Source: Eretmocerus hayati (lineage: Eukaryota; Arthropoda; Insecta; Hymenoptera; Aphelinidae). From it: a DNA stretch of 64,000 nt. The stretch is from contig CM056742.1 in NCBI GenBank assembly GCA_029851415.1, positions 77,862,748-77,926,747 of the forward strand. Direction: 5' to 3'. Each line of letters begins with the position of its first letter. The first letter of the stretch is position 1. Shown piece by piece: positions 9,029 to 56,699 of this stretch. Below the pieces are notes generated by a model. It searched no databases, was not told the DNA's origin, and saw nothing but the letters and a program-made list of their open reading frames with translations. The translations under genes and the position numbers were made by a program.

Positions 9029-9032
<4 letters not shown>

Positions 9033-10241: not shown

Positions 10242-10352
<111 letters not shown>

Positions 10353-10808
10353 CACCAGTAGTAATTCTGGTTAGGGAGTACAACTCTCCAGTAGTATTCT
10401 GGTTAGGGAGGTGATTCAGGCTAAACGTTCACCAATTACTATTTCACGGCTAATAACATCCAGCCTGATTTACTTGACCCGGATACGAAAGCTCTCGTGC
10501 CAGATCGTAAGATCTATATGGATGAAATGCTCCCCCGTGAGAAATATAAAGAATATATACGCTTGAGGCCAGTTGCACACGGTTTAGGATTAAAATACGT
10601 CTGGCACAGTGGCGGACGTTTCTGGGTTAGACGGAAAAATGGTGAGCGAGCGCATACGTTTGAATCTCTTGCTGATCTGCAGGTCATTCAAACGGCCTGT
10701 CGAAGTGTTCCGAAACGTTCTCGTGCACCCTCTAACAACACCCAGAGCTGTGCCTCCGTTCCGGAGCAGAGTTGTGCTTCGGCAGCAGAAAAGGCGAGAA
10801 CTCCCTGA
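10353..10808 (+). pseudogene. LINE A1 ORF1, C-terminal fragment
   Basis: Only the last ~125 codons of family A ORF1 remain, including PDRKIYMDEMLPREKYKEYI, LKYVWHSGGRFWVRRKNGER and the end KARTP before TGA. A few bases are missing near 10430 relative to A2, which shifts the frame upstream. The domain matches the C-terminal nucleic-acid-binding-type domain common in insect LINE ORF1 proteins. There is no start codon, so this fragment cannot be expressed normally. Confidence 0.8.
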
Positions 10809-10811
10809 CTA
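10806..10811 (+). promoter_or_regulatory. UGA-CUA ORF1/ORF2 junction (LINE A1)
   Basis: ORF1 ends in TGA followed by CTA, and ORF2 continues in the same frame for 975 codons. UGA CUA is the best-known readthrough-prone stop context in animals. The same hexamer occupies this place in A2, B1 and B2. Confidence 0.65.
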
Positions 10812-13736: not shown

Positions 13737-14048
13737 TGGGGAGGACTCTTCCTTAATTTAGTATTTTTTACATGTGACCTCAGTCACCCAATTGGTGATC
13801 TATAGCTGTGATATTAGTGCGAGCCCTTACCCCTCTTTTTATACTTCTAAGTATGCACCCTGACTAGTCACGAATTGTGATAATTATTGTCCTTGACCAA
13901 ACCAGTAATTGACTGAAACTATCATCATTATTTTTGTTGTACATATATTATATTCATTCTTATACGTGTTATTACATTTTAACGGGCATATGTAGGTGTA
14001 TGCAATCGTATTTTTTGTCTTCGGACGAATAAAGGACATCTATCTATC

Positions 14049-14572
14049 TTTTTTTTTTTTTTTTTTTTTTAAGGTGGTTAGAGGGCAAAATCTGCCTCAG
14101 GATCCCTCGGATCCATCCGTCCCCAGACACCGGACTGGTTCAGCTTACGCGGACTACGCATAGCCCACGCAGGCCATACCAGGCGGGACACGGGTTTGGG
14201 TGGGGCCCACCGAGAGGTGTCAGGTAATGTCCCTCTCCCCTCGATGTCCGATACCTAGGGCATCGGGCAATCAAGAAGGAGATCCACCTGCATCTACCAT
14301 CTCATCCCGGAACCGCGTGAGCATTACTTCAGGATGAGCGGCATGTCTCGCGCTCGATTGCGAGCGTTCCTCTTCTCCATCTTCTCTCTTCGGACACTTG
14401 TCGGCATCTTCTATCTTCACTCTTCATTGTTCCCTCTCTTTCTTCTTTCTTCTCTCTTCTTCCTTCTTTCTTCCCTCTTCAGTGCATCAGATTCCTCCTG
14501 GAATCATTTGGGCCTCTTCTGTTTCAATCGGCAGAGTCACTGTAATTCGCCTGCTTCGAGGCGCCTTACTTC
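14049..14572 (-). mobile_element. R1-like LINE fragment c, inserted in the tail of LINE A1
   Basis: Poly(T) at 14049-14070 (poly(A) on the sense strand) is followed by the R1-like 3' untranslated region, truncated just inside the end of ORF2. TATCTATC stands on both sides (14041-14048 and 14573-14580), so it inserted into the TATC tail of LINE A1, although the repeat makes the exact duplication length ambiguous. The GC hairpin seen in copies f and g is altered here. Confidence 0.8.
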
Positions 14573-15010: not shown

Positions 15011-15744
15011 TTTTTTCTCCTTTTTTTCCTTTGAGGTGGTTATAGAGCGAATACGCTGAGACGTACATTAGAGAAGCACCGAACAGACAAGCACGGCTGG
15101 CTAGTACCTCCCCCCCCCCGTTCCGGGCTGATCCGAATCGATACGGCCATCCGAACCGAATAAACGCTCTCTCCCTCTCCTTTCGAGGGGAAGCTCCACC
15201 GACTCACCAATCCGGTCCCGGAACCGCGTGAGCATTACTCCAGGATCGGTGGCGTCTCGCGCTCGATTGCGAGCGTTCCTCTTCTCTCTCTTCTCATTTC
15301 GGCTTTTCATCGGCATCTTCTATTTTCATTCTTCTTTCTCCTCTCTCTTTTTGCTTTCTTCTCTTTTATTCCGTCCTCCCCTCTTCAGGCCATCATGCTC
15401 CTCCGGGAGGAGTCATTGGCCTTTTCTGTCGGAACTGAATGGTTCACTGTGATGCGCCTGTTTCAAGGCGCCTGACTTCCCGCTCCTCCTCCTCCTTCCG
15501 GGTCATCACCAGCTCGATGTATCCGGTGACTCTATCCCATGTCTCCTGATTGCGGAGCGAGTACGGGACGAGGTTCATAGGTGTTAGTTGATGACCTAGA
15601 CATTCATCCAACTCGGCGCGCTCTCTTCGGGTGTCGTTGCATGTTAACAGGGCGTGTTCACTGTCATCCCAGTTGTCTCCGCATGACTGACATGCTGGGG
15701 ATGTCCTCTTCTTGAACCGGGTCAGATAGGCACCAAAGCAAGTT
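15011..15744 (-). mobile_element. R1-like LINE fragment d (subfamily 2)
   Basis: A minus-strand 5'-truncated copy. The 3' end GAGGTGGTTATAGAGCG, the T-rich tail before it and the 3' untranslated region match copy h at 44.1 kb rather than copies a-c, so there are at least two R1-like subfamilies. The ORF2 end (stop at 15444) is kept with [19 protein letters not shown] and HALLTC, the C-terminal CCHC finger. It is joined upstream to the tail of copy e. Confidence 0.8.
15444..15744 (-). pseudogene. R1-like ORF2 C-terminal fragment (copy d)
   Basis: About 100 codons of the R1-type ORF2 C-terminus: LTRFKKRT, the finger CQSCG-(8)-H-(4)-C, then LVPYSLRNQETWDR and a basic, glutamate-rich end. No RT motif is present because the copy is 5'-truncated. 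The frame appears to run on into the neighbouring copy's tail by chance. Confidence 0.7.
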
Positions 15745-16077
15745 GTCTTTTTTTTCCTTTCAAGGTGGTTAGAGGGCGAAATCTGCCTCAAGATCCTCCG
15801 GATCCGTCCCCAGACACCGGACTAGTTCAGTTTACGCGGACTACGCATAGCCCACGCAGGCCATACCAGGCGCGACACGGGTTTGGGTGGGGCCCACCGA
15901 GAGGTGGGCCCGGCCGTGTAATATCCCTCTCCCCTCGATGTCCGATACCTAGGGCATCGGGCAATCAAGAAGGAGATCCCCCTGCATCTACCATCTCAGC
16001 CCGGAACGGCGTGAGCATTACTCCAGAATGAGCGGCATATCTCGCGCTCGATTGCGAGCGTTCCTCTTCTCCATCTG
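15745..16077 (-). mobile_element. R1-like LINE fragment e
   Basis: A T-rich tail (15748-15769) and AAGGTGGTTAGAGGGCGAAATC mark the 3' end of a minus-strand copy of subfamily 1; it is truncated near 16077 within the 3' untranslated region. It keeps the hairpin GGGCCCACC-GAGA-GGTGGGCCC (plus-strand reading). It abuts copy d, apparently inserted at or near that copy's 5' end. Confidence 0.75.
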
Positions 16078-16509: not shown

Positions 16510-18318
16510 ATGCTGAGGGGGACAATGTTCGTCTCAAAATTTTGCAACATCTTACAGCTTGAGAAGAAGAAAAAGGTGCATATCTCAGCAGAAGATCGAC
16601 TGTTTGCGAAAAAATTGAGTGCCACAAAATCTTTTCTCAAGTCCAATAACGATATCTTTTTCACTCGAGCTGATAAAGGTACTTTCACAGTATGTATGAG
16701 AAAATCTGAGTACAATACGAAAATGAATGAGCTTTTATCAGACAGAAAAGTATATAGACCGGTGAAAACAAATCCTCTCAAAAAAATTCAAGAGACAGTC
16801 TCACCACTCTTGAAAAATTGGAATACTCGAGGCTACCTGGGAAAAAAATTTCATCCTTACTCTCTCACTTTATCGAATACCACTCTAGCAAAAGAATACG
16901 GTTTACCAAAAATTCATAAACAAAATGTGCCACTCCGACCAATAGTTTCCACGATTAACAGTCCCACTCATTACCTATCTTCTATCCTTCACAAAGAATT
17001 AAAGCACTGTTTGGAGGTTTCTGAATCATACGTCAAGAACAGTCAAGAACTTAAGAAAAAATTAGAAGGTCTTAATATACCGCAAGAATATGTTCTTATC
17101 TCTCTAGATGTCAGCTCACTGTCCACCAATATCCCTTGTCGCTTAGTTCTTGAAAGTCTGGACAGAAGGTTCAACCAAATCCATAGTCAATGTGAAATTC
17201 CGTTTGATGAAGTGAGAGAAGCCGTGAAAGTCATCTGTGATAATACTCATTTCCAGTTCAGTTCTAAATACTATAAGCAACTCGAGGGTAATCCTATGGG
17301 CTCACCCATCTCACCTCTGTTTGCTGGCTTGGTTATGGCCGACCTTGAAAATGAGTGTTTGAAACGACTAAAAAATGTTCATAATATATGCCCATTATTT
17401 TATTATCGATATGTAGACGATACACTCTTGTGTATCAGAAGACAACATGTTGACTTAGTCATCGATATTTTCAACTCATATCACCCAAAACTTCAGTTTA
17501 CACATGAACTTGAGCGAAATAACAGGATAAATTTCCTCGATTTTACACATATGAAAAACGACAATAAAATTATTACTGACTAGTACCAAAAACCCACATC
17601 TTCCGGAGAAATTTCGAATTTCAATTCTAACCACTCCTCACAACAGAAAAAGAATATAATTCATAACCTTACAGATCGAGCAATCACCCTATCTCACAAA
17701 AAATTTCATAAAAAGAATCTGGACATTATAGAAAATCTACTTAGAAATAATAATTATCCTGATATTTTGGTCAGCAAGTGCATCAACAATAGACTCCATT
17801 CTTTAAAAGAACAGAGACCTCACTCAGATGACCAAACTAAACGATTTTATGCACTGTCACAAAAAGTATGCATTCCATATTCCAAAGGTTTCTACCAAAA
17901 ATGTTCCAACGTACTAAAAAAGTACAATATTCACACTCTACCTAAGCTCAGTCAAAATCTCCAAAACATCATAAAACTCGGAAAAGATCCGTTCAACAAA
18001 TTCGAGGCAACTGAATTAATTTATAAGTTCTCGTGTAAAAACTGTCCAGCTTCATATGTGGGAGAGACAAAAAGATCTTTGTCGACTAGACTCAATGAGC
18101 ACATCAAAATGAAAAACCCAAATACAGTCGTTTCACTACACATGAAAGAACTTGGTCATGAATTTGATTGGCCGAATGTGAAAGTATTGGACCGAGAACC
18201 TCATTTTCACAAGAGATTACTCAGTGAAATGATTTTCATCAATTCAGATGATAACAACATCAATCTTAAGACTGATACGCGTAATCTCAACAGACTGTAC
18301 AGTTCCATTCTAAAATAG
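16510..18318 (+). pseudogene. Penelope-like element polyprotein (RT plus GIY-YIG-type endonuclease), one stop
   Basis: A single frame from 16510 to TAG at 18316-18318, broken only by an in-frame TAG at 17581-17583. The N-terminal part (FFTRADKGTFTVCM) and RT motifs fit Penelope-like elements: RPIVSTINSPTHYLS, LISLDVSSLSTNIP (catalytic Asp), NPMGSPISPLFAGL and the catalytic FYYRYVDDTLL. After the stop the frame goes on with QKPTSSG, a known Penelope-type feature, and the endonuclease segment CKNCPASYVGETKRSLSTRL with EH. The stop lies at an aromatic position and looks like a nonsense change of TGG. ATG 16510 is only the first in frame; the true N-terminus may be lost. Confidence 0.9.
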
Positions 18319-25097: not shown

Positions 25098-26882
25098 GAT
25101 TATTCTGGTTCTGTTTATAAAGACTCCAATTTGAGCTGTGATTTGAAAGATCCCACTGAGATTGATGTGGATTTACATATTCCTGAAAATGATGTTATTA
25201 GAGCCATTAGTCATATGAAAGACTCTTTATCTGTTGGTTATGATGGTATTCCAATGCAATTTCTGAAAAAATGTAGAGCCAACTTAGTGGACCCTTTACA
25301 GTATATCTCTTCAACAAATCTGTCATGGATGGAGTTTTCCCTTCATCGTGGAAATACTCGTATGTCACACCAATACATAAAGGTGGAGCTATGACTCCAG
25401 CTCCTAATTATCGTCCTATTTCCATAACTGGAGCTATTGCTAAGCTTTTTGACTATATCATGGCTGATAAACTTTATTCTGCTATTTGTGATCGATTGAT
25501 TTCGAATCAGCATGGCTTTATTAAGGGTAAATCTACGATCACTAACTTATTGAATTTCTACGATTACACGATTAATAACCTAGAGTGCCATTTTCAAACT
25601 GATGTGCTGTATCTAGATTTCTCAAAAGCATTTGACAGGGTCGATCACAAGTTATTACTATGTAAATTGTATAATTTAGGCGTGCCGAAGTTGCTTGTTA
25701 AATGGATTGAATCGTACCTGACGGATAGGTACCAAATTGTGAAACTCTGTGGAGCTTTTTCTGATCCAGTACATGTCAAATCTGGAGTTCCTCAGGGGTC
25801 CCATCTTGGCCCTCTCTTGTTCAACGTTTTTGTAAATGACATTATCGAAGTTGTCAGAAACTCTAAGTGCCTACTTTATGCTGATGACATCAAACTCTTC
25901 ATGAGAATTAGTTCTCCACTTGACTGTAAACTCCTTCAAGATGATTTGTCTAGTATTGTTGAGTGGTCGATACACAATGGGTTAAACTTGAACATTGAGA
26001 AATGTAAAGCTATGTCAATAAGCCGTAACCTTTTCCCAAATCACTATGTCTACTCAATCTTATCGCAAAAGCTGGAGAGAGTCATCAACTTTGAAGATCT
26101 CGGGGTTATTTTTGACAGTGAGCTTGATTTCGGTAGCCATATTAGTGAATCGGTCTCTAAAGCTTTCAGAAACCTTGGCTTCATCAATCGGAATACGCAA
26201 GATTTTAGCAATCCAAAATCATATCTTAACTTATACAAAAGTATCGTTGTTCCATCTCTTACTTGTGCGTCCATCATATGGAGTCCTCACTTGGAATCTA
26301 GAACTTCAGAATTAGAGTCCGTACAAAGGAGATTCCTTCGGAGTCTGTCTTATCGCCTAGGCTCACCTTTGAATAGATTGAACCACGATTTTACTGATAT
26401 TTCTAGGAATCATAAAATATGCACTGCTAAATCCCTACATCATTTCAAAGACACAGCATTTGTTTGGAATATTCTTAAAGGAAAGATAAATTGCTCATTC
26501 GTTGTCTCACTCTTTCAATCTAGGAGTAATCCGTACCCAACTATAGATCCAAGATCATTATCGGTTGATCCTTTCAGCAGCAATTTGAGCTTTAATTCGG
26601 TAGTTGCTAGATTTAGGCGAAGATGGAATGATCTACCAAGTTATATTAGAAATCATGATTCGTATTTGCCTTTCAAACATGATGCTATGCAAAATGTGTG
26701 CAAGTACTACTAAGTCTCTCAATTATTTATATTTGCTTAACTGCATATTATTTATTTTATGATACATTATCTTGATTTCTCATATTGTTGTTTTCTGATG
26801 ATATTTATGTCGCTCTTGGATATTTTTATACTTATGTAAAGAGCATATTGCCCGTATATTGTTTAAAATAAAATAAAATAAA
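25098..26882 (+). mobile_element. LINE J, 5'-truncated, nested in LINE B5
   Basis: This LINE, from a different family than A, B and C, has an RT ORF and an AT-rich tail (AAATA)n at about 26866-26882. It interrupts the LINE B5 3' untranslated region. No clear target-site duplication is visible. The protein places it in the Jockey group. Confidence 0.75.
25131..26713 (+). pseudogene. LINE J reverse transcriptase (Jockey-group), frameshifted
   Basis: Two overlapping frames: 25131-25394 encodes the RT start (PTEIDVDLHIPENDVIRAI, then SVGYDGIPMQFLKKC) and 25325-26713 the rest. A frameshift in the 25.3-kb region divides them. The second frame has the RT motifs PNYRPISI, QHGFIKGKSTITNLL, LYLDFSKAFDRVDH, GVPQGSHLGPLLFNVFVNDI and the catalytic LLYADDIKLF, then the C-terminal domain to CKYY and TAA. 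There is no endonuclease because of 5' truncation. The Jockey-group assignment rests on motif style; the clade was not tested. Confidence 0.8.

Positions 26883-26945: not shown

Positions 26946-26999
<54 letters not shown>
26946..26999. repeat. (TC)n microsatellite between LINE B5 and R1-like copy f
   Basis: Pure TC continues from the TATC tail of LINE B5 and is followed by the poly(T) of a minus-strand R1-like copy. Confidence 0.9.
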
Positions 27000-27007
<8 letters not shown>

Positions 27008-27660
27008 TTTTTTTTTCTTTTAAGGTGGTTAGAGGGCAAAATCTGCCTCAGGATCCCTCGGATCCGTCCCCAGACACCGGACTGGTTCAGCTTACGCGGA
27101 CTACGCATAGCCCACGCAGGCCATACCAGGCGGGACACGGGTTTGGGTGGGGCCCACCGAGAGGTGGGCCCGGCCGTGTAATATCCCTCTCCCCTCGATG
27201 TCCGATACCTAGGGCATCGGGCAATCAAGAAGGAGATCCACCTGCACCTACCATCTCATCCCGGAACCGCGTGAGCATCACTTCAGGATGAGCGGCATGT
27301 CTCGCGCTCGATTGCGAGAGTTCCTCTTCTCCATCTTCTCTCTTCGGCCACTTGTCGGCATCTTCTGTCTTCATTCTCCATTGTTCCCTCTCTTTCTTCT
27401 TTCTTCTCTCTTCTTTCTTCTTTCTTCCCTCTTCAGTGCATCAGATTCCTCCTGGAATCATTTGGGCCTCTTCTGTTTCAATCGGCAGAGTCACTGTGAT
27501 TCGCCTACTTCGAGGCGCCTTACTTCCCTCTCTTTCTCCTCTTTGCGGGTCATCACCATCTTGATGTATCCGGTGAGTCTATCCCATGTCTCCTGGTTGC
27601 GGAGCAAGTACGGGACGAGATTCTCGGGTGTTAGTTGAGCACCCAGCCATTCATCCAGCT

Positions 27661-27664
<4 letters not shown>
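27000..27664 (-). mobile_element. R1-like LINE fragment f
   Basis: A minus-strand copy inserted within a TC tract: poly(T) at 27000-27016, the 3' untranslated region with the hairpin GGGCCCACC-GAGA-GGTGGGCCC near 27150, and the last ~55 codons of ORF2 (RNQETWDRLTGYIK, stop at 27491). It is truncated near 27664 and TC repeats resume at once. Confidence 0.85.

Positions 27665-27716
<52 letters not shown>
27665..27716. repeat. (TC)n microsatellite upstream of full-length LINE B1
   Basis: The TC tract ends exactly at the inferred 5' end of LINE B1 (GCCGGTGAGT). Confidence 0.9.
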
Positions 27717-27720
27717 GCCG

Positions 27721-27810
27721 GTGAGTACAACCACACGCTCTCTACATTGCTCCGTCTTGAATGTCTTTTCTCACCGACAAAACATCGTCCCGAGGGGCAT
27801 ATTTTTGCAG
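27721..27810 (+). other. Intron-like 90-nt segment in the LINE B1 leader
   Basis: GTGAGT opens it and ATTTTTGCAG closes it, both good matches to splice-site consensus. The same 90-nt span with the same ends occurs in A2 (33181-33270). It may be a spliced intron, a promoter element or an RNA structure. Confidence 0.5.
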
Positions 27811-28022
27811 ATTGGACTTCCTCTCGCAGGCTCATACCTTTGGAGCAACACTGCATGGCTCCAATCAGAGCCTGAGAGGAATTATTCCAAATTCTGCAAT
27901 TCGACAATAACATTCAGTCAGCAGTTCTTGGCGCCGAAACCAACCATCCTGCGCATGCCCGGCGATCGTCGTCTGCTCCACGCTAACTATACACCTGTAC
28001 TGCTGCTGTCTGCTGTCACGCG

Positions 28023-29816
28023 ATGGGCGACACCACCTGCCACATATGCAACACCAACCTGCGTCATGGCAGCAAGCAATGCAGCACCTGCAAACGGTTC
28101 GTCCACACAAAATGTTCAAAAACATCGAACAACAAGTGGTTTTGCATAGCGTGTCAAGAGGTGAGCAGAAAATCTTACAAAATAGCGTCGCCGGGCGCCA
28201 TTAAGCAGACGGCTTCGTCTGCTCGGCGCAGCACTACGAAGCACGTCAGAGAGAGAGAGATGGAGAATACCGGCTTGCGCACTAGTGTGAGTGGCTTGTC
28301 TACCACTACACAGACTCGGCTCAGCTCTCGCAGCAAGGTGGGGACATCTCCCCTTGCCCCGCACACCATTACCACCGGCCGCGGCGAGAAGCCCCCTACC
28401 ACCAGTGGCTCTACTCCCGTCGGGAGGACCGATGAACAGCGAATGTCGTCTGCTGCACCACCAACTCGCAGCGGTGGCAGCACCTCAGCGCTTACCGCTC
28501 GTGGCGCGCAAATTCAAACAGAGGCCATCGGCGCATCCCAGCCATTACTCTTATCAACATCTTCTGAGGATGGTCGTGGGATATCCCAAGACGGGAACGA
28601 CAGAACACCAGTCCAGCCAACCACTCCAGCAACAACGCCAGCACCGGGAATTCCTAGAGATAAGTGGGTTTTGATTTCGCAGAGTACTCTGGATCTCTTT
28701 CTTCAACAAAATGACTTAACTCAGAACCGGCTCGACGAAATAATGTCCCTCTTAAACCGACGTGAGGCTGCCATCTCCTCTCCGCCACCCACACCAGCAG
28801 TGAGTGCGGAGAGTGCTCAACTGTTAGCGCGCATGTCGTCTCTGGAGGAACTCATAGAGAAGCAAAACTCCAAGCTGGAGGAGTTTCGCCTAGATCGTGA
28901 GCTGCTTCTTGAGGAAAATACTTTGATGAAAAGCCAGATCTCACATCTGACTGATCTTTTGAAAGACGACCAGGGCACTCTGCGAAAATCTAATGTTAGT
29001 AATGAAATCAAGTCTTCCATTTCTGAGCTTCCACATCAATCCTCCGGGCCAGATCCTCAAGTTCGAACGGATTTTTCTAACAATTCACGTGCTGGGCGGC
29101 GGAGCACTGAACTCAGGGGTGAAGGTCTTGAGTGCAGCCAACTAATTATCACTGGTGCTTTGAAAAAAGACTCTACTGCCTCGGAGGATGAGGTACGTAA
29201 TATTTCCTTCGCAGTACTCAAGTCCATTCTTCCCTCGCTGGAGAGGGAGAACATTTCTGATGTTCGTGTTCTGCAGCCCGGGCACGTGTCTGGAAGGACG
29301 AATCCGAAACGTAACTACAAATCACCCGATTCATCGCCCCGAGCCTCGGTCATCCGCTCACGTTCTGTTCCATCCTGCGTAGTCCAACTCTCGTGCAGTC
29401 GTCTAGTCAGGGAGGTGATTAGAGCCAAGCGCTCGATTGCCAACAATTATTTCACAACTCATAACATCGAGCCCACATTGCTTGACCCTGAAGCGAAAGC
29501 CCATGTGCCGGACCGAAAGATTTACATCAATGAAATGCTACCTCGTGACAAATACAAGGAATATATTCAGCTGAGGCCACTTGCACGAGGTCTAGGCTTC
29601 AAATATGTTTGGCACAGCGGTGGACGCTTTTGGGTCAGGCGTAGAAATGGCGAGAGAGCGCATGCGTTCGAGTCCCTCACTGAACTGCATGTCATTCAAA
29701 CGGCGTGTCGAACAGCCCCAAGACCAAATCATGAGTCATCGGACAGTAGCCCGAACAGTCCAACCGTTCCAGACCAGGCTACAGATTCTACAGCAGCATC
29801 AGCGGGGACTCCCTGA
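28023..29816 (+). CDS. LINE B1 ORF1: PHD finger and nucleic-acid-binding protein
   Basis: 597 codons from ATG 28023. Residues 6-44 form a complete C4HC3 PHD-type finger (C6, C9, C20, C23, H28, C31, C41, C44, with W39). A Ser/Thr/Pro-rich low-complexity stretch follows (about 60-210), then a likely coiled coil (about 265-320, LLARMSSLEELIEKQNSKLE), and a C-terminal domain (about 400-575) with VPDRKIYINEMLPRDKYKEY and YVWHSGGRFWVRRRNGER, typical of insect LINE ORF1 RNA-binding/chaperone domains. PHD-like fingers are known in ORF1 of CR1-type LINEs. The inferred role is packaging the element RNA. It ends in TGA followed by CTA. Confidence 0.85.
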   Translation: MGDTTCHICNTNLRHGSKQCSTCKRFVHTKCSKTSNNKWFCIACQEVSRKSYKIASPGAIKQTASSARRSTTKHVREREMENTGLRTSVSGLSTTTQTRLSSRSKVGTSPLAPHTITTGRGEKPPTTSGSTPVGRTDEQRMSSAAPPTRSGGSTSALTARGAQIQTEAIGASQPLLLSTSSEDGRGISQDGNDRTPVQPTTPATTPAPGIPRDKWVLISQSTLDLFLQQNDLTQNRLDEIMSLLNRREAAISSPPPTPAVSAESAQLLARMSSLEELIEKQNSKLEEFRLDRELLLEENTLMKSQISHLTDLLKDDQGTLRKSNVSNEIKSSISELPHQSSGPDPQVRTDFSNNSRAGRRSTELRGEGLECSQLIITGALKKDSTASEDEVRNISFAVLKSILPSLERENISDVRVLQPGHVSGRTNPKRNYKSPDSSPRASVIRSRSVPSCVVQLSCSRLVREVIRAKRSIANNYFTTHNIEPTLLDPEAKAHVPDRKIYINEMLPRDKYKEYIQLRPLARGLGFKYVWHSGGRFWVRRRNGERAHAFESLTELHVIQTACRTAPRPNHESSDSSPNSPTVPDQATDSTAASAGTP

Positions 29817-29819
29817 CTA
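29814..29819 (+). promoter_or_regulatory. UGA-CUA ORF1/ORF2 junction (LINE B1)
   Basis: TGA CTA separates two intact frames in the same phase. No in-frame ATG occurs before 30066, which is codon 84 of ORF2 and lies beyond the catalytic glutamate of the endonuclease (codon 49). Normal AUG initiation therefore cannot yield a complete endonuclease. Confidence 0.7.
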
Positions 29820-32744
29820 AATACGGCTGCCGGAGAGTCAAAAGGGAGTGGTAGTTCCTTAAAGGCGGGGTTTATCAATCTTAACTCCTTAACAGATAAG
29901 ATTGAGCACCTGCGCCTGCTCGTCGCTGCCGACCCCTCCTACCATCTTTTCGGGGTAGCTGAGTCGTGGCTCGATGAGTTTGTAGATGACAGTCTTGTTC
30001 AGGTCCCAGGTTATTCGCTGTTACGGCAAGATCGTAACAGAAACGGTGGCGGGGTTGCTCTGTATGTGCGTAATGATTTCAAAGTGGAGAGGCTTGCCTC
30101 GTCTAATACTTCTGGTCCGGGGTGTCCTGGCATCCCCGAGTATTTGTTTTGCAGCGTACAGCAGGGTAACTCGCCATCGATTCTAGTAGGTGTGATTTAT
30201 AGACCTCCAAAGGTTGCCATGCAGAAGGATGATGGGCTTTTCGGCTCATTACGCCGACTGTGTGGAGATTTTAGCCACAAAGTTATTATGGGGGATCTGA
30301 ACGCAGACTTGTTGGACACGGCTCATTCTGACACAAAGACATTGACCGCACTGACCGAAGAACTGTCCCTTCAGATTGTGCAACACGGTGCGACTCATCA
30401 ACACAACCCCAATGTGTCTCATAAATGGATCGACCATATGTACGTAGATGAAAATGATACCGTCACCGACTTACAAAACAGACTACTGCCCAGTTTCGGC
30501 AAGCACGCGGTCATCGACGTCACCATCAACGTCTTCACTCCTGCTCCGCCTAAAAATTCCTTCACATACAGGGATTTCCGTAACATCACTCCGGAGCAGT
30601 TGAATGATCGCCTGCTTCGCTGTGACTGGACAGCGCTCAACAATGCTGAAACTAGTTTGGAAGATGCGATTAATTGCCTCAATGAAAACTTGAAAGTTGT
30701 ATTAGATGAACTAGCGCCTGAAAAAACGATTTGCCCTCGTAAAGGCGACGCTCCTTGGATTGGTCCCGAGCTGAAAGGACTCATTAAGAAGCGTGATGCA
30801 ACACGTAGGCGCTGGGAGCGAAACCAATGCAACCAGCGCAAGTGTTCTGGTCTTCAGAATGAGTTCTTCCGGCTCAGTGAAGAGGTTGACGTGCGTATTG
30901 AGAAAGAGCGAATTTCCTTCATTCAAAGTCACCTTTCCGACGCTCTTGATCAACATAAAAACATTTGGAAGGAAATGCGTAACCTCGGCCTCTTGCCTAA
31001 GAGCAAAGAGGAGGAGCTTCACGGCTTCACCCCGGACGAGTTGAACGCTCACTTTGCAGGAGTCTCTGTCTCACCTCGCGAGAATATAGAAGAAGCAATG
31101 GACGATGTAATGGTGGCTCCAGAGGAGGGTTTCGAATTCAAGCCAACCAATTTGAATGAAGTAGTCCTTGCCATAAAACATTTCTCCTCACAGGCTCGCG
31201 GGGTAGATGGAATCCCTCAAAGCGTGATCGCGAAAGCTCTCCCGGCGATTGGTGATCTTATTGTACATATTTTCAACTCCTCTTTCGCTCACAGCATCTT
31301 TCCTGAGACTTGGAAGCAAGCACAGCTGATTGCGCTAAAAAAGACTGTAGCTCCATCATCAGTCTCGGACTTCCGTCCTATTGCGATCTTGTGCTTCCTC
31401 TCCAAGGTTCTCGAAAAGATTGCACACGACCAAATCACGGAGTACTTGAAGAAAGAAAAATTATTAGATGGCTTCCAGGCTGGTTTCAGACAACACCACA
31501 GTACCCAGACAGCTTTGCTGAAATTGACTGATGACATAAGACTAGGTATAGATAGGAAGAAGATCACCCTTTTACTACTCTTCGACTTCAGCAAAGCCTT
31601 TGACACGATATCACCAACAAAACTTCTGAGTAAACTGCGACAACTTGGTTTCTCGCGTTCGGCACTCCTGTGGATCAAATCATATTTACAAGGTCGCACC
31701 CAGCTAGTCACCTCCAAGAATGGTAAATCTGATTGGCTCGCAACCAATCTGGGTGTTCCGCAGGGTTCTGTTCTCGGGCCCTTACTCTTTAGTTTGTACG
31801 TCAATGACTTGCCTGGGCTATTGAATGGAAAGTCGGTAGATCATCTCTTTTACGCTGATGACCTCCAAATTTATCTCCAAATCGAGAAAAATAAGATCAG
31901 GGAGGGCATCGCTCGACTGGGAGAAATCGGACGACTGGTTGCTGATTGGGCTATGGGCTCCGGCCTGCGTCTCAACGCTGGTAAAACCAAAGCAATCTTT
32001 TTCTCTTCCGAGAGGAATATCAAGGATCTGAAAAGGATGGATCTGCCAGGTGTTGAGATACAGGATGGAGTTTTCGTTCCTTTCAGTGACACAGTCGTGA
32101 GTCTTGGTGTTGTATTAGACAGCGAATTATCGTGGAAACCGCAAATAAATCAAGTGACGAAGAAAGTCAACAGGGCCCTGTACGGTTTGCGGTTTTTCAG
32201 GGCATGCATCACCGGGACTCTCCGAGTTCGACTGGTCGAGGCGTTAGTACAACCCCATCTAGACTATTGTACGGTCGTGTATCTTGACGCCACGGACGAA
32301 CAGCGGCAACGGCTACAAAGACTAAACAACTCATTTGTGAGATACATTTTTGATCTTAGGAGAGACGAGCACATCACTCCGTTCAGGGAAAACTTGGATT
32401 GGCTGCGTACTGATTCGCGGCGAATGTACTTTGCAGGCATTATCATGTATAAGATCATGCACATGAGGGAACCTGGTTACCTGTCTGCAATGTTTACCAG
32501 GCACCGATCCGAGCGCCCCGTGCGGGGAGATGCACAAGAGCAGGAACTCAAAGTCCCCAAGGTGAGACTTGAATATGGAAGAAGATCTTTCCAAGTTCAA
32601 TGCGCTCACTTCTGGAACTTTCTCCCTTCAGGCATCCGGCAAATTCAGAAGATCTCATTTTTCAAAGAAGCTTTGAAAGAGTTTCTCTTATCACAACCAT
32701 CCCAGAGGATTGATGTGGATAACAAACAATACTTTAACCTCTGA
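29817..32744 (+). CDS. LINE B1 ORF2: endonuclease and reverse transcriptase, intact
   Basis: 975 codons counted from the codon after UGA. The linker ends GSGSSLKAG. Endonuclease: NLNSL (about 21-25), catalytic Glu in VAESWLDE (49), GDLNADLLD, KWIDHMYVDEND and GKHAVID. RT: FRPIAIL, LLFDFSKAFDT (about 588-598), VPQGSVLGPLLFSLYVNDL and FYADD (catalytic Asp about 681-682). The C-terminal domain ends QYFNL. Length equals that of A1 and A2 exactly. I begin the feature after UGA because homology to the other copies and to LINE endonucleases runs to there; ATG 30066 would cut off the active site. No stops or frameshifts are present. Confidence 0.9.
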   Translation, partial: LNTAAGESKGSGSSLKAGFINLNSLTDKIEHLRLLVAADPSYHLFGVAESWLDEFVDDSLVQVPGYSLLRQDRNRNGGGVALYVRNDFKVERLASSNTSGPGCPGIPEYLFCSVQQGNSPSILVGVIYRPPKVAMQKDDGLFGSLRRLCGDFSHKVIMGDLNADLLDTAHSDTKTLTALTEELSLQIVQHGATHQHNPNVSHKWIDHMYVDENDTVTDLQNRLLPSFGKHAVIDVTINVFTPAPPKNSFTYRDFRNITPEQLNDRLLRCDWTALNNAETSLEDAINCLNENLKVVLDELAPEKTICPRKGDAPWIGPELKGLIKKRDATRRRWERNQCNQRKCSGLQNEFFRLSEEVDVRIEKERISFIQSHLSDALDQHKNIWKEMRNLGLLPKSKEEELHGFTPDELNAHFAGVSVSPRENIEEAMDDVMVAPEEGFEFKPTNLNEVVLAIKHFSSQARGVDGIPQSVIAKALPAIGDLIVHIFNSSFAHSIFPETWKQAQLIALKKTVAPSSVSDFRPIAILCFLSKVLEKIAHDQITEYLKKEKLLDGFQAGFRQHHSTQTALLKLTDDIRLGIDRKKITLLLLFDFSKAFDTISPTKLLSKLRQLGFSRSALLWIKSYLQGRTQLVTSKNGKSDWLATNLGVPQGSVLGPLLFSLYVNDLPGLLNGKSVDHLFYADDLQIYLQIEKNKIREGIARLGEIGRLVADWAMGSGLRLNAGKTKAIFFSSERNIKDLKRMDLPGVEIQDGVFVPFSDTVVSLGVVLDSELSWKPQINQVTKKVNRALYGLRFFRACITGTLRVRLVEALVQPHLDYCTVVYLDATDEQRQRLQRLNNSFVRYIFDLRRDEHITPFRENLDWLRTDSRRMYFAGIIMYKIMHMREPGYLSAMFTRHRSERPVRGDAQEQELKVPKVRLEYGRRSFQVQCAHFWNFLPSGIRQIQKISFFKEALKEFLLSQPSQRIDVDNKQYFNL

Positions 32745-33072
32745 TAGGCTTGGGCTCTTTCCGATTAGGCTTTTAATTATAACTTAGTTATGCGTGGCCT
32801 TCCCGCCATTGACTGAAACATCTGTGATAATTTTCCGAGCCCACTATCCTTTATATGTACAAAAATGTTTTATATTTTCTTGCTCCTTTTTCCTATCTTT
32901 ATCTGTATAATAAATAGTGTAATTTGACTTTCTACGCACCTTGCAGTGCTTCAAAATGACTAGTCACTTGATGTGATAATACAATGTCCTTGACCAAAAC
33001 GACAAATTTCATGAATGTGATATATATTTATTATGAGTGACATATGTATCATATGTAACAGAATTTTTAACT

Positions 33073-33088
33073 TTTGCCTCTGAGCAAA
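33073..33088 (+). promoter_or_regulatory. 3'-terminal RNA hairpin of LINE B1
   Basis: TTTGC-CTCTGA-GCAAA, immediately before TAAAGG and the tail. Equivalent hairpins with different but pairing stems end the A, B and E copies. In CR1/L2-type elements such 3' hairpins are recognised by the RT. Confidence 0.6.
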
Positions 33089-33114
33089 TAAAGGATATCA
33101 ATCAATCAATCAAT

Positions 33115-33117
<3 letters not shown>

Positions 33118-33177
<60 letters not shown>
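33118..33177. repeat. (TC)n microsatellite between LINE B1 and LINE A2
   Basis: Sixty bases of TC lie between the AATC tail of B1 and the 5' end of A2 (GGCGGTAAGT). Two full-length elements of different families are thus joined head to tail. Confidence 0.95.
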
Positions 33178-33178
<1 letters not shown>

Positions 33179-33180
33179 CG

Positions 33181-33270
33181 GTAAGTGTTTCCACACGCAT
33201 CTAACATCGCTCCGTGCTTGAACATCTCTTTAACCATCAAAACGTCGTCCCGAGTGGCACTTTTTTGCAG
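33181..33270 (+). other. Intron-like 90-nt segment in the LINE A2 leader
   Basis: GTAAGT at the start and TTTTTTGCAG at the end, the same length as in B1. CCACACGC after the donor, CGTCCCGAG in the middle and GCAGATTGGACTTCCTC at the acceptor are shared with B1. Confidence 0.5.

Positions 33271-38600: not shown

Positions 38601-38656
<56 letters not shown>
38601..38656. repeat. (TC)n microsatellite between LINE A2 and LINE C
   Basis: TC repeats continue from the TATC tail of A2 and end where the truncated LINE C begins. Confidence 0.9.
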
Positions 38657-38659
<3 letters not shown>

Positions 38660-38688
38660 AAGCTTTTCTCTGTGATAATTCTTTTGAT

Positions 38689-38703
38689 GTCTTTGCTATA
38701 ACT
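38689..38703. repeat. Target-site duplication of R1-like copy g (left)
   Basis: GTCTTTGCTATAACT, repeated exactly at 41023-41037 on the other side of the insert. Confidence 0.9.
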
Positions 38704-41022
38704 TTTTTTTTTTTTTTTTTTTTTTTTTTAAGGTGGTTAGAGGGCAAAATCTGCCTCAGGATCCCTCGGATCCGTCCCCAGACACCGGACTGGTTCAGCT
38801 TACGCGGACTACGCATAGCCCACGCAGGCCATACCAGGCGGGACACGGGTTTGGGTGGGGCCCACCGAGAGGTGGGCCCGGCCGTGTAATATCCCTCTCC
38901 CCTCGATGTCCGATACCTAGGGCATCGGGCAATCAAGAAGGAGATCCACCTGCATCTACCATCTCATCCCGGAACCGCGTGAGCATTACTTCAGGATGAG
39001 CGGCATGTCTCGCGCTCGATTGCGAGAGTTCCTCTTCTCCATCTTCTCTCTTCGGCCACTTGTCGGCATCTTCTATCTTCACTCTTCATTGTTCCCTCTC
39101 TTTCTTCTTTCTTCTCTCTTCTTTCTTCTTTCTTCCCTCTTCAGTGCATCAGATTCCTCCTGGAATCATTTGGGCCTCTTCTGTTTCAATCGGCAGAGTC
39201 ACTGTAATTCGCCTGCTTCGAGGCGCCTTACTTCCCTCTCTTTCTCCTCTTTGTGGGTCATCACCAGCTTGATGTATCCGGTGAGTCTATCCCATGTCTC
39301 CTGGTTGCGGAGTAAGTACGGGACGAGATTCTCATGTGTTAGTTGAGCACCCAGCCATTCATCCAGCTCGGCGCTCTCTCTCCGGGTGTCGCTGCACTTG
39401 AACAGGGCATGTTCGGCGTCATCCCATTCGTCCCCGCATGACTGACATGCTGGGGTCGTCCTCTTCTTGAACCTGGTTAGATAGGAACCGAAGCAACCAT
39501 GATCGCTCAGTGCCTGCGTCGTCCAGTAGTCCATCTCTCCGTGGGTGCGTTCCGCCCACTTGGCTACGTCACGGATCAGCCGGTGCGTCCATCTGCCGTT
39601 CGCAAATGGCGAATCCCACTCAGTTTGCCAATGCTCAAGGGTGGTTTCCTTCTCGTTGTCGCGGATGATCTCCTTCATCGTCGGAGTGAGTACTCGTTCG
39701 GCTCCGATCACTTTCTGGCGGTCCCAGATCCTCACTCGCTCCGCGACGAGCAAGTGGATGGGCGGAGTACTCGCCAATACGTAAGCCGCATCTCCTGACA
39801 CAGTGCGGTAGGCACGGATACTCCTCAGGGCCGCTCTTCGGTGGACAGGCCCCATTCTCTTCTCGATGATGGTCTTCTCTACCCTCTTCCCCCACACGGG
39901 TGCACCGTACAGCATGATGGAGGTAGTGACGGTGTTGAGAAGTGCGCGCCTCTTTTCCTTGGGTCCTCCGATATTCGGCATAAGCCGCTGGAGCGCCGCA
40001 CCGACCTTGCTCGCCTTCTGGGCGGCTTCCTGGATGTGCTTCTTGAACGACCACTTGTCGTCGAGCCATACACCGAGGTATTTCAGCTCTGTCTTCCGTG
40101 GAATCTCTTGCCCGTTGATATAAAACCGGGGTAAGTCAAACTTCCTACGCCTTGTGACCACGATTGCTTCGCACTTCTTGACAGCGAGCTCCAGAAGCCT
40201 GCTAATCATCCACTCGTAGACTCGGGCTAGCGCTTCGTTCGCGCGTCTACCCAAGAGTTCCTCGTTGTCAGCCCATACTATGAGTCCCGCGTCGTCCGCG
40301 AAAGCCACTATTATCACTCCTTCTGGCAGTTCGATAGACAGTAAGCTGTCATACTGGGTGTTCCAGTTGAACGGCCCGGAGACCGATCCCTGTCCGATTC
40401 CGGCGGACAGTACCCGAATCTCTTGTCCCTCGTCGGTGTCGTACACGAGGGTCCTGTTCCGCAGGTAGTCACTCGTGACGGCTAGTAGATAGGGGGGCAC
40501 TTTACCTGCTTGGGATTGATAGACTCGCTCCCAGCTCGCGCAGTTGAATGCGTTCTTTATGTCCAACGCAATGATGGCACAGAATCCACCTCTTCCTTGG
40601 TATGGGTTCCCTACCGACGCTTGAACCCGTTCTTGGACCGCCTCGATCGCGTGCACAGTGCTCCGTCCCTCCCGGAACCCGAACTGCATTGGTGATAGCC
40701 CACCGCCTTCTTCGTAGGCTTTTTCCACCCTGTTGAGCACCATCCTCTCGTACATTTTCCCGATATTGTCGAGCATGCTGAGAGGGCGTTGACCTCCTTG
40801 ACCCTTAGGTATCAGGACCAGCTTCTGGCGTTTCCACTTGTCCGGGAAAGTTCCCGCGCTCAGACAGATGTTGAAGAGGTCGAGGAGTAGATCTGGCTTG
40901 TATTTGAAGACCAGTTTCAGAGCCTCGTTTGGGATGCCATCCAGGCCAGGGGCCTTGCCGTTCGGCATTCTCTTCGCCGCTATGAGTAGCTCTTGCATAG
41001 TGAAGTAGCTCTTGCATAGTGA
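38703..41022 (-). mobile_element. R1-like LINE copy g, longest copy, inside LINE C
   Basis: A minus-strand insertion of about 2.3 kb: poly(T) at 38703-38729, a 3' untranslated region with the GGGCCCACC hairpin (near 38860), and an open ORF2 fragment. It is flanked by a 15-bp target-site duplication. At its 5' end AGTAGCTCTTGCATAGTGA is directly duplicated (about 40986-41023), a typical irregular 5' junction of target-primed reverse transcription. It is the reference for the shorter copies a-f. Confidence 0.9.
39199..41022 (-). CDS. R1-type ORF2 fragment: reverse transcriptase with C-terminal finger
   Basis: An uninterrupted frame of about 605 codons, lacking the endonuclease because of 5' truncation. 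RT motifs in order: NGKAPGLDGIPNEALK, RPLSMLDNIGKMYER, GFREGRSTVHAI, ALDIKNAFNCASW, GIGQGSVSGPFNW, the catalytic FADDAGLIVWA and LKYLGVWLDDKWSF. Near the end is [18 protein letters not shown], the CCHC finger typical of the R1 clade. The reading frame is clean, so the copy is young. The R1-clade assignment is from motif style and the finger; R1 proper targets rDNA, and no rDNA is present here. Confidence 0.85.
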   Translation of the reverse strand, partial: SLCKSYFTMQELLIAAKRMPNGKAPGLDGIPNEALKLVFKYKPDLLLDLFNICLSAGTFPDKWKRQKLVLIPKGQGGQRPLSMLDNIGKMYERMVLNRVEKAYEEGGGLSPMQFGFREGRSTVHAIEAVQERVQASVGNPYQGRGGFCAIIALDIKNAFNCASWERVYQSQAGKVPPYLLAVTSDYLRNRTLVYDTDEGQEIRVLSAGIGQGSVSGPFNWNTQYDSLLSIELPEGVIIVAFADDAGLIVWADNEELLGRRANEALARVYEWMISRLLELAVKKCEAIVVTRRRKFDLPRFYINGQEIPRKTELKYLGVWLDDKWSFKKHIQEAAQKASKVGAALQRLMPNIGGPKEKRRALLNTVTTSIMLYGAPVWGKRVEKTIIEKRMGPVHRRAALRSIRAYRTVSGDAAYVLASTPPIHLLVAERVRIWDRQKVIGAERVLTPTMKEIIRDNEKETTLEHWQTEWDSPFANGRWTHRLIRDVAKWAERTHGEMDYWTTQALSDHGCFGSYLTRFKKRTTPACQSCGDEWDDAEHALFKCSDTRRESAELDEWLGAQLTHENLVPYLLRNQETWDRLTGYIKLVMTHKEEKEREVRRLEAGELQ

Positions 41023-41037: not shown

Positions 41038-43784
41038 GAGAGTCACCTTAACGAACTCGATACTGATACAAGTGTTGGAGTAGACAATTTTACAATCGTC
41101 CGGAACGACAGAGTGGGCCGCTCGGGTGGTAGAATAGAGCTATCTATTTTGCTGAAACAATCAATTTTAAAGTTCTTGTAAAATCGGACTCCTCGCGCAA
41201 GAATTTCCCTGAATTTATGATCTGTGAGATCCAAGACCGCAACGATACCTTACTTTTTTCCGTTATTTACAGGCCCCCTGATGCGCGTCTCCCTAATGAA
41301 TTTTTCGAGGTCTTGTCTACTTTACTTCCTAAATATCCTAAAGTTGTCATTACAGGTGATCTAAACTGTAACATGGCCATAAACGATTTCAAACCTGAAT
41401 ACGTCCATAAAGCCTTACGTGATTACTCACTTCACTTGGTTCCATCTGATCCCACGCATCACACTTTGAATGCTGAGACACAGTCCTCTCACACATGGAT
41501 CGACTTATTCATTGTTAGCTCGCTTGATGTTGTTGTTGACTATTCTAAGTCAGATGCACCTTTTTCAATCGGACATGACCGGATTGATCTCAAATTCCAA
41601 TTCACGAAGACCACGAGAGAGCCAAAACTTGTAACTAGGAGGAACTTTGAAACTTTCAGTCTGGAACGTTATCTCGATGATTTGTCACTCAACTTTGCTT
41701 CTTTCCCATCAAATGCAAGTCTTTACGACAAAGTAGCCATTTTCAACCAGTCAATCACTTCTGCCCTCGACCAATCAGCTCCTTTTAAAACATATACCAT
41801 TACCGCTCGAAATAAACCTTGGGTTAACAACGATATTCGTACTTTAATGAAAGAACGTGACTCCCTTTATAAGAAGGCGCGTAATACTGAGTGTCCTGTA
41901 CTGAAACAACGATACCGAGCACTCAGATCCCAAGTCCAGAAACTACTACGAAAGGCCAAGAACCAATATTACTCGTCCCAAATTGCCATTTCTCAGAGCT
42001 CCAACAGGCTATGGAGTACCCTCAACGGACTAGGCATAGTCAACTCCCGTTCCCTCTCTCCTTTCCGAACCTTCTCTCCTGAAGCAATTAATGCCCATTT
42101 CGCCTCTATTTCCAACCCTTCTCCCACGCCCCTAAATCACTATCATTACCATCAACTCAGTCACCAACCTCATATCAACATTCCCTTATTTTCACTGTCA
42201 CCAACCAACCAAAACGAGGTCCTGAGTATCATTCGCTCGCTAAAATCAAAAAGTTCTGGCATTGATCATTTCACGGTCCGAAATCTGCTCACGTCCTGTC
42301 CAATCATTCTTGAACCCCTCACTGATATTTTCAATTCAAGTATTGAGGATGCATCTTTTCCTGAACTCTGGAAGCGCACACTTATTACTCCTATTCCTAA
42401 AACGAATTATCTCATAGACTTATCGGACCTGAGACCCATATCAAAGCTTTCTGAGTGCTCAAAAATTCTTGAAAAGGTAGTCTCAGACCAGCTGAAACAA
42501 TTTATCGAAGATTATGAACTTCTTGACCCTTGTCAAGCTGGTTTCCGAGGGGGTCACAGCACTCAGACTGCTTTGCTAGGAGTCCTAGATGATGTGCGCA
42601 AGGGAATAGACCAGCCAATGTACACGATTCTCGTGCTTTTCGACTTTTCCAAAGCTTTCGACAAAATTCCGCATCAAATTTTAATCCAAAAACTCCGTTT
42701 CTTCAATGTGAGTGATCATACTACACGGTGGTTCCTGTCGTACCTTGCAGACCGCTGCCAAGCAGTCATTGATGATGGTGGGACGGTATCAGACTGGCTG
42801 AATACAACTGCAGGAGTCCCCCAAGGCTCAGTCCTGGGTCCCCTCTTGTTCTCCATCTTCATCAATGACCTGCCAAAAGTTCTGTGCTATACGCGGTACA
42901 TGATTCACGCCGATGATACCCAGATTTACAGAAGTTGCCACCGGTACGAGCTCAAGGAAGCTCTCAAATTGGTTGAGAAAGATTCTAACGCGATCCAGGC
43001 ATGGGCCATCATGAATGGACTTAGCTTGAATCTCAAGGAGACAAAAGTTATGATCCTCGGTAGCAATGAAAACCTCCGTCTCTTGAATATAGATGACCTA
43101 TCACCCATTACAATTGGTGGCACTTCAATTGACTTTGTGACCGAAACTAAGAACCTTGGAACTTGGCTTACTTCCGATCTTAACTGGCAGAAACAAGTAT
43201 CATCTATTTGTCAGCGCGTCTTTGGCACTCTCCGTCAACTGCGTCCCCATCAACATGCCCTCTCATTTTCTCTCCGCATATCGCTCGTTCAATGACTCAT
43301 CCTCCCTTACTTTGACTATGCCTGCCTTGTTTATCATGATCTAACCGAGGGACAAAACCTCAGGCTCCAGCGGGCCCAAAACGCGTGTACTCGCTTCGTG
43401 TTTGGAAATATCCCTTGTAGAGATCATGTTACCCCCTATCGCAAGCGCCTAGGGTGGCTCACGGTAAAAGCTCGACGAGAGTACTTTCTAGCTAGCTCTC
43501 TGTATCAGATCCTTCAAACCCATAAACCTTTGTATCTGGCTAAAAACATCGTTGAAGTATGCAATACAAGTCTTCAGAGATCCGTTCGCCTCCAGACTGG
43601 AGACCTCATAGTTCCCAAATATCACACATCGTCTTTGCAAAACGCTTTTTACGTGAACGCCTCGCATTATTGGAATAAATTACCGCGTGCTATTTCCACC
43701 ATGCCTCGCTCAACGTCCCTGAAGAATTTTAAAAAATGCCTACTCCTATACCTTCTCGATCTTGATACGAATAGTGACGTATAA
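41038..43784 (+). pseudogene. LINE C ORF2: endonuclease and reverse transcriptase, frameshift and stop
   Basis: The main 692-codon frame (41217-43295) begins within the endonuclease. Upstream, SVGVDNFTIVRNDRVGRSGG (from about 41050) is in another frame, so a small indel lies near 41130. Endonuclease: GDLNCNMA, HTWIDLF, GHDRIDL. RT: LRPISKL, CQAGFRGGHSTQTALL, VLFDFSKAFDKI, AGVPQGSVLGPLLFSIFINDL and the catalytic HADDTQIY. TGA at 43293-43295 interrupts the C-terminal domain, which continues in frame to 43784 (YRKRLGWL, HYWNKLPRAI). It cannot make full-length protein. Confidence 0.85.
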
Positions 43785-44078: not shown

Positions 44079-44488
44079 TTTTTTTTTTTTTTTAAGGTGG
44101 TTGTAGGGCAAATACGCTGCGACGTACGAAGGAGAGGCACCGGTCAGCCAAACACGGCTGGCCAGCACCTCCCCAACAGTCCCGGGCTGGAATCCGCATC
44201 GATACGGCCATCCGAACCGGGTAAACCCTCTCTTCCTTCTCCGTTGGCGCCGGCCATTGGACAAGGGAGAGATCCACCAACTTACCAATCCGGCCCCGGC
44301 ACCGCGCGAGCATTACTTCAGGGCCGGCGGCGTCTCGCGCTCAGGATCGAGCGTCTCTCTTCTCACGACTCGCAGGTGTTGTTTCCCTTTCTTCGATCTT
44401 CTTCCATCTCTTCATTCTTCATCTTCTTTCTTCTCTCTTCCCTCTTCAGTGTATCAGATTCCTCGTGGAACCATTTGGACCTCTTCTG

Positions 44489-55257: not shown

Positions 55258-56696
55258 GCCGCGGCGAGAAGCCCCCTACCACCAGTGGCTCTACTCCCGT
55301 CGGGAGGACCGATGAACAGCGAATGTCGTCTGCTGCACCACCAACTCGCAGCGGTGGCAGCACCTCAGCGCTTACCGCTCGTGGCGCGCAAATTCAAACA
55401 GAGGCCATCGGCGCATCCCAGCCATTACTCTTATCAACATCTTCTGAGGATGGTCGTGGGATATCCCAAGACGGGAACGACAGAACACCAGTCCAGCCAA
55501 CCACTCCAGCAACAACGCCAGCACCGGGAATTCCTAGAGATAAGTGGGTTTTGATTTCGCAGAGTACTCTGGATCTCTTTTTTCAACAAAATGACTTAAC
55601 TCAGAACCGGCTCGACGAAATAATGTCCCTCTTAAACCGACGTGAGGCTGCCATCTCCTCTCTGCCACCCACACCAGCAGTGAGTGCGGAGAGTGCTCAA
55701 CTGTTAGCGCGCATGTCGTCTCTGGAGGAACTCATAGAGAAGCAAAACTCCAAGCTGGAGGAGTTTCGCCTAGATCGTGAGCTGCTTCTTGAGGAAAATA
55801 CTTCGATGAAAAGCCAGATCTCACATCTGACTGATCTTTTGAAAGACGACCAGGGCACTCTGCGAAAATCTAATGTTAGTAATGAAATCAAGTCTTCCAT
55901 TTCTGAGCTTCCACATCAATCCTCCGGGCCAGATCCTCAAGTTCGAACGGATTTTTCTAACAATTCACGTGCTGGGCGGCGGAGCACTGAACTCAGGAGT
56001 GAAGGTCTTGAGTGCAGCCAACTCATTATCACTGGTGCTTTGAAAAAAGACTCTACTGCCTCGGAGGATGAGGTACGTAATATTTCCTTCGCAGTACTCA
56101 AGTCCATTCTTCCCTCGCTGGAGAGGGAGAACATTTCTGATGTTCGTGTTCTGCAGCCCGGGCACGTGTCTGGAAGGACGAATCCGAAACGTAACTACAA
56201 ATCACCCGATTCATCGCCCCGAGCCTCGGTCATCCGCCCACGTTCTGTTCCATCCTGCGTAGTCCAACTCTCGTGCAGTCGTCTAGTCAGGGAGGTGATT
56301 AGAGCCAAGCGCTCGATTGCCAACAATTATTTCACAACTCATAACATCGAGCCCACATTGCTTGACCCTGAAGCGAAAGCCCATGTGCCGGACCGAAAGA
56401 TTTACATCAATGAAATGCTACCTCGTGACAAATACAAGGAATATATTCAGCTGAGGCCACTTGCACGAGGTCTAGGCTTCAAATATGTTTGGCACAGCGG
56501 TGGACGCTTTTGGGTCAGGCGTAGAAATGGCGAGAGAGCGCATGCGTTCGAGTCCCTCACTGAACTGCATGTCATTCAAACGGCGTGTCGAACAGCCCCA
56601 AGACCAAATCATGAGTCATCGGACAGTAGCCCGAACAGTCCAACCGTTCCAGACCAGGCTACAGATTCTACAGCAGCATCAGCGGGGACTCCCTGA
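55255..56696 (+). pseudogene. LINE B2 ORF1, N-terminally truncated
   Basis: Codons equivalent to B1 ORF1 residues 119 to the end, with coiled coil (MSSLEELIEKQNSKLEEF) and C-terminal domain (PDRKIYINEMLPRDK) unbroken. The PHD finger and start codon are lost; TC repeat sequence precedes it, so the open SLSLSL run upstream is microsatellite and not protein. Confidence 0.85.
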
Positions 56697-56699
56697 CTA
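56694..56699 (+). promoter_or_regulatory. UGA-CUA ORF1/ORF2 junction (LINE B2)
   Basis: The same TGA CTA hexamer in phase with ORF2 as in B1, without any ATG before 56946. Confidence 0.65.

Follow-up and report, generated by a model that had tools for sequence, protein, structure and literature searches.

LINE copies in the window

The window (the whole 64,000-nucleotide stretch of Eretmocerus hayati DNA analyzed here) contains four LINE copies, A1, B1, A2, and B2, all on the + strand, in which ORF1 ends in TGA followed by CTA and ORF2 continues in the same frame. The junctions start at 10806 (A1), 29814 (B1), 35344 (A2), and 56694 (B2), exactly where an earlier note on this DNA had placed them. 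B1 is the sole copy of the four with both ORFs intact; in A2, ORF1 changes frame and ORF2 stops prematurely after 432 codons. The features of these copies, all on the + strand, are:

27665..27716, +, (TC)n microsatellite abutting the 5′ end of B1, a full-length copy
27717 to about 33117, +, whole B1 element, apparently full length and intact
27717..28022, +, B1 5′ leader; in A2 a similar start, G[CG]CGGT[GA]AGT, comes after (TC)n at 33177
28023..29816, +, B1 ORF1, 597 aa, with an ATG start at 28023
29814..29819, +, B1 junction, TGA CTA
29817..29855, +, B1 linker, codons 1-13 past the stop; codons 1-12 are predicted with pLDDT <50
29823..29825, +, ACG, in-frame codon 3 past the B1 stop, with a purine at -3; candidate non-AUG start in a rival reading
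29817..32744, +, B1 ORF2, 975 codons, first ATG at codon 135
29856..30530, +, endonuclease domain of B1 ORF2; first predicted strand at codons 14-22, end at codon 238 as read off the model
31362..32000, +, reverse transcriptase domain of B1 ORF2 (RVT_1, residues 516-728)
10806..10811, +, A1 junction, TGA CTA; only the end of a 5′-truncated ORF1 precedes it, and ORF2 is open for 975 codons
35344..35349, +, A2 junction, TGA CTA, then G; early ORF2 stop at 36643
56694..56699, +, B2 junction, TGA CTA; near-copy of B1 with a 5′-truncated ORF1 and an ORF2 of 975 codons
44549..46054, +, fifth related copy, D, 5′-truncated beside (TC)n at about codon 12 of ORF2 and thus without a junction

The earlier note counted four supporting copies. 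All four show the junction, but because B1 and B2 are near-identical (99.6% over ORF2 codons 19-975), only three junctions, those of A1, A2, and B1, are independent. A1 and A2 are two further, more diverged members, and A1, A2, and B1 differ pairwise at 24-39% of four-fold sites.

By its matches to RVT_1, to an endonuclease, and to the LINE-1 ORF2p profile, the element is classed as an APE-type LINE. The B1 ORF2 matched RVT_1 with E 8.2e-35, and the LINE-1 ORF2p profile matched with 5.8e-24 over profile positions 13-697. The Exo_endo_phos match was below the Pfam cut-off in B1 (7.9e-05) and above it in A2 (4.6e-08). As in other LINEs, 5′ truncation occurs: A1, B2, and D start inside the element, adjoining (TC)n. 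The B1 ORF1 has a putative PHD-like zinc finger (PHD matched the N-terminal piece with E 0.011 and the whole ORF1 with 0.63, below the Pfam cut-off), a coiled coil, as judged by eye, and a C-terminal domain resembling Baculo_FP_2nd (0.00076 to 0.0031, also below the cut-off). CR1/L2-lineage LINEs with a PHD in ORF1 resemble the element in their ORF2, with endonuclease and reverse transcriptase, and may resemble it in ORF1, given the putative PHD-like finger (PMC4120745); the main text of that paper does not mention "stop codon," "in-frame," or "readthrough."

Relatives named by organism came from Ampulex and Nasonia, which by themselves make an insect, perhaps hymenopteran, host likely. For ORF1, no homologue was found at E 0.001 among 7994 candidates scored, perhaps because low-complexity ORF1 words fill the candidate list. 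Two scans of viral contigs revealed no related DNA, and two genome contigs (L001 and L002) matched the element DNA. Sixteen plasmid records matched, all at <60% identity; the five listed comprise three annotated group II intron RTs and two without annotation.

Several more distant sequences were recovered. P0027, a relative of 1320 aa with 26% identity, carries PHD, endonuclease, and RT in one polypeptide, a single-ORF arrangement. Within the window, other distant RT-bearing stretches lie at 41139-43724, 25289-26713, 39964-41001 (- strand), and 16510-17583. The first of these is 33% identical to the B1 ORF2, and its junction is unreadable because its frame breaks at the 5′ end.

Constraint on ORF2 and the sequence around the stop codon

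To describe selection past the stop codon, we compared ORF2 codons 19-975 between copies, using counts that skip stop codons. Between A and B copies, dN was 0.093-0.099 and dS 0.93-1.0 (dN/dS about 0.1); between A1 and A2, dN was 0.053 and dS 0.51. Coding constraint is strong from codon 19 and weak in codons 1-14. Since ORF2, endonuclease included, has been under purifying selection across lineages that share the in-frame stop, it was translated in elements of this build, and this selection is the strongest argument that something takes ribosomes past the stop codon.

No AUG that could provide this protein lies upstream of the endonuclease. Past the stop codon, the first in-frame ATG comes at codon 32 in A1 and only at codon 135 in the other three copies, in agreement with the earlier note that no conserved ATG precedes the endonuclease. 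That note had placed the first ATG of B1 at codon 84; this codon is GTG, at the ORF start at 30066. The Glu of the VAES motif, which we take to be the catalytic residue, is codon 49 in all four copies, as the note had it. In the predicted structure of the B1 ORF2 (mean pLDDT 76), codons 1-12 have pLDDT <50 and the first strand spans codons 14-22. Since the endonuclease fold is predicted from codon 14, no ATG can begin a complete ORF2: initiation at codon 32 would remove the first strand, and at codon 135 about half of the endonuclease. Moreover, in all four copies no ATG begins in any of the three frames between 82 nt upstream and 48 nt downstream of the T of TGA, and thus there is no AUG overlapping or near the stop of the kind used by SART1.

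The results from relatives tell against readthrough. In L001, a relative with 31% identity on a record labelled as a bacterial MAG, the ORF2-like frame begins with its own ATG (1435) in a frame different from that of the preceding 306-aa ORF, taken as its ORF1. Among 42 related proteins compared, the 20 with at least 45% identity were scored for the position of the first Met. In 7 of the 20, it stands at or up to ~15 residues before the first endonuclease residues, so that ORF2 may start separately there. Another 11 begin within the endonuclease domain or later, one has no Met and is cut by a contig edge, and one is a Nasonia gene model with a different N-terminus joined at residue 102. Since a predicted Met may stand for GTG or TTG, the 7 are only possible separate starts and the 11 are not countable as support.

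Up to the endonuclease, the sequences past the stop codons of A1, A2, and B1 can be aligned without a single indel. At four-fold sites, 170 of 318 (53%) are identical in the three copies; at this rate, complete retention of TGACTA, which all three show, has a chance of 0.023. The core from -6 to +12 is identical in 15 of 18 columns (P 0.009 against the four-fold rate) at a site picked after inspection, and shuffling of the surrounding columns yielded an equally conserved 18-nt window somewhere in 73% of cases and at the exact place of the core in 3%. Under neutrality, the chance of indel-free linkers in three lineages is 0.24, 0.06, or 0.01, assuming indel/substitution ratios of 0.05, 0.10, or 0.15, respectively. 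Of the features that the earlier note proposed to check for conservation, TGACTA and phase are thus kept in the three copies, and linker codons 1-14 are identical at 27 of 42 sites versus 53% of four-fold sites, which is not clearly more (P 0.10). Overall, conservation of the junction itself is moderate and suggestive only.

The linker looks like a fast-evolving spacer, with dN/dS values of 0.67 and 0.85 in comparisons of A with B copies. On the other side of the stop, the final 40 ORF1 codons are similarly loose (dN 0.37-0.42, dS 0.50-0.74). The earlier note had drawn on the constant length of the linker and on synonymous differences in its GSS codons. Both are real, and copy D adds a fourth form of these codons, GGCAGTTCA, but given the dN/dS values the argument carries weight only from about codon 12, and the GSS changes are a mark of the endonuclease border, not of the linker as a whole.

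Among all 5907 stop trinucleotides in the window (both strands, all frames, the four junctions included), 49 (0.8%) are TGA followed by CTA. Since the junction is one event by descent, the four copies do not multiply this figure.

RNA structure was rejected as a shared feature of the junction, a point against readthrough, by the absence of compensation and a folding signal confined to B1. No conserved 3′ structure was found, as none of 43 consensus pairs showed a compensatory change. For the 120 nt from the first base past CTA, folding z was -2.36 in B1, -0.16 in A1, and -0.36 in A2; for 80 nt starting 4 nt further on, values in the three copies were 0.53, -0.39, and 0.34. As no Rfam family matched at its gathering score in the window, or at E 1 in 27700-33130, there was no sign of a SECIS element. 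A search for proteins that span the junction, another point against, returned nothing at E 0.001 among 2623 candidates; this search was weak because its query held only ~52 ORF2 residues, and known ORF2 relatives were not returned either.

Readthrough and its rivals as possible routes to ORF2

Since the ORF1 stop is a UGA in a CUA context, ORF2 continues in the same frame as an open extension, no AUG is usable, and ORF2 is under selection, UGA-CUA readthrough is probably how ORF2 is produced and, judged from these features, is its best explanation. In this model, ribosomes end ORF1 at UGA-CUA, where the majority would terminate to give the ORF1 protein. A small fraction would decode UGA as sense and go on in frame, yielding an ORF1-ORF2 fusion of 1573 residues in B1, close to the rare fusion of about 1570 residues anticipated in the earlier note. 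Readthrough itself, its level, and the role of the fusion as the active protein, with the enzyme tethered to ORF1 multimers much as in retroviral Gag-Pol, are inferred from this arrangement.

UGA-CUA is a weak stop documented in animals and on its own gave 1.5% readthrough in a study in HEK-293T cells (PMC4132726). A G after CTA belongs to the stronger mammalian readthrough motif (PMC4132726); that only A2 has this G tells against readthrough. The mammalian UGA-CUA(G) readthrough genes share the context of the LINEs, but there readthrough adds C-terminal extensions to cellular proteins, whereas in the LINEs it would supply an obligatory enzyme (PMC4132726). Like the LINEs, gammaretroviruses have an in-frame stop between structural and enzyme ORFs and make short and fused products (PMC5009743). 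They differ in using UAG with a stimulatory pseudoknot, where the LINEs have UGA-CUA and no conserved structure was found (PMC5009743).

The readthrough interpretation, which the earlier note had put forward, stands as the best supported on account of context, frame, missing AUG, and selection, but it has a rival that is as well conserved as the UGA-CUA junction. After termination, the small subunit could move 6 nt past the UGA and start ORF2 at the ACG of codon 3, giving a separate ORF2 protein. In every one of the four copies, ACG is the sole near-cognate codon in frame ahead of codon 10. The base at -3 is a purine, G in A2 and A in the other three copies, and B1, B2, and A2 have G at +4. 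The further near-cognates before codon 14, AGG at codon 10 in A1 and ATA at codon 11 in A2, are not shared. As ACG is the only shared near-cognate before the endonuclease, the choice is between readthrough and initiation, most likely at this ACG.

ACG restart would amount to SART1-type stop-start coupling without an AUG. LINE-1 and SART1 use, or are proposed to use, termination-reinitiation, and viral reinitiation with non-canonical start codons is reported (PMC5972666). According to the same review, restart sites after long ORFs lie at or very near the stop, which a distance of 6 nt would fit. In SART1, ORF2 translation is coupled to ORF1 termination, as it would be in the window LINEs, but SART1 restarts at an overlapping stop-start site, and the window LINEs have no ATG at the stop (PMC5972666). 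ACG restart also leaves the identity of the stop, UGA then CUA, unexplained. Moreover, by our estimate chance alone often places some near-cognate codon in a stretch of twelve codons, whereas TGA-CTA makes up 0.8% of stops in the window. The absence of a UGGGA motif up to 250 nt upstream in all four copies is a weak point against restart, as some reinitiating RNAs (among them those of pneumoviruses) also lack it (PMC5972666). We regard ACG restart as the serious rival, yet as unlikely. The same ACG occupies +10 to +12 (counting the U of the stop as +1), a stretch whose bases may influence readthrough; effects of +11 and +12 have been reported, in a numbering that may differ from ours (PMC12233894).

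We consider it very improbable that the stop is a defect of dead copies, with live elements carrying a sense codon or a separate AUG. A1, A2, and B2 are indeed damaged, and the copies are few and all from one 64-kb window. However, A1, A2, and B1 have the junction in common although their ORF2s diverged under selection, and in B1 both ORFs are open, with B2 as its near-identical sister in the window. Least probable of all is that the stop is spliced out or that ORF2 has an internal promoter or entry site: a donor-like GGT[GA]AGT does lie at the extreme 5′ end of both full-length copies (27717-27727 and 33177-33187), and spliced LINE-1 RNAs exist (PMC5860796), but the linker is purine-rich with, by eye, no pyrimidine tract ahead of its AGs, and internal entry without an AUG faces the same start problem.

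Ciliates reassign stop codons. The earlier note knew of no readthrough in such LINEs, yet readthrough of the ORF1 stop has been suggested for group 3 non-LTR retrotransposons (LINEs) of Paramecium, in which, as here, ORF1 and ORF2 share one frame (PMC5405496). Those are ciliate elements in a clade of their own, and the likeness lies in the frame and the proposed mode, stop context aside (PMC5405496). For animal LINEs, no report of readthrough was found among the literature matches listed, which were judged mostly by title and the start of the abstract, with subscription papers and Repbase reports outside this scope. Zorro3 was ruled out as prior art, as its ORF2 depends on its first ATG (PMC1965478).

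Returning to readthrough, we lean toward the view that the copies represent an animal LINE lineage without a free ORF2 protein, in which endonuclease and reverse transcriptase would be made only as a readthrough ORF1-ORF2 fusion, an arrangement like Gag-Pol reached independently of retroviruses. How leaky UGA-CUA is would then determine enzyme dosage, and the enzyme would be tethered to ORF1 complexes. To our knowledge, there are few LINEs for which it is known how the scarce ORF2 protein is made from a bicistronic RNA. An obligatory fusion, if true, would offer an easy way to achieve cis preference and to fix how much ORF1 protein is made per enzyme. It would also expose LINE activity to any change in termination fidelity.

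TC microsatellites and a neighboring repeat

By eye, 11 of 12 (TC)n/(GA)n tracts of at least 10 units lie at, or up to ~25 nt from, a LINE end or 3′ tail (a tract at 4690 was left out). The LINE-end tracts are:

6427-6488, (TC)n/(GA)n
8997-9028, (TC)n/(GA)n
10251-10318, (TC)n/(GA)n
10327-10352, (TC)n/(GA)n
26947-26998, (TC)n/(GA)n
27665-27702, (TC)n/(GA)n, beside B1
33118-33175, (TC)n/(GA)n
38603-38656, (TC)n/(GA)n
44492-44537, (TC)n/(GA)n
54548-54567, (TC)n/(GA)n
55174-55255, (TC)n/(GA)n

Both full-length copies, B1 and A2, begin with their shared 5′ motif right after (TC)n, and LINE 3′ tails, consisting of AATAAAGG plus (AATC)n or (ATCT)n, lead into (TC)n. It looks as though the LINEs target TC microsatellites, which would give rise to head-to-tail clusters.

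A repeat of ~670 bp is also present, at about 27000-27664, 9027-9508 (- strand), 9513-10145, 14039-14572, 15216-15614, 15748-16076, 38611-39382, and 44269-44491. Its copies at 27000 and 38660 start close to a run of T that follows (TC)n, which would suit a minus-strand poly(A) retroposon that also entered TC microsatellites.
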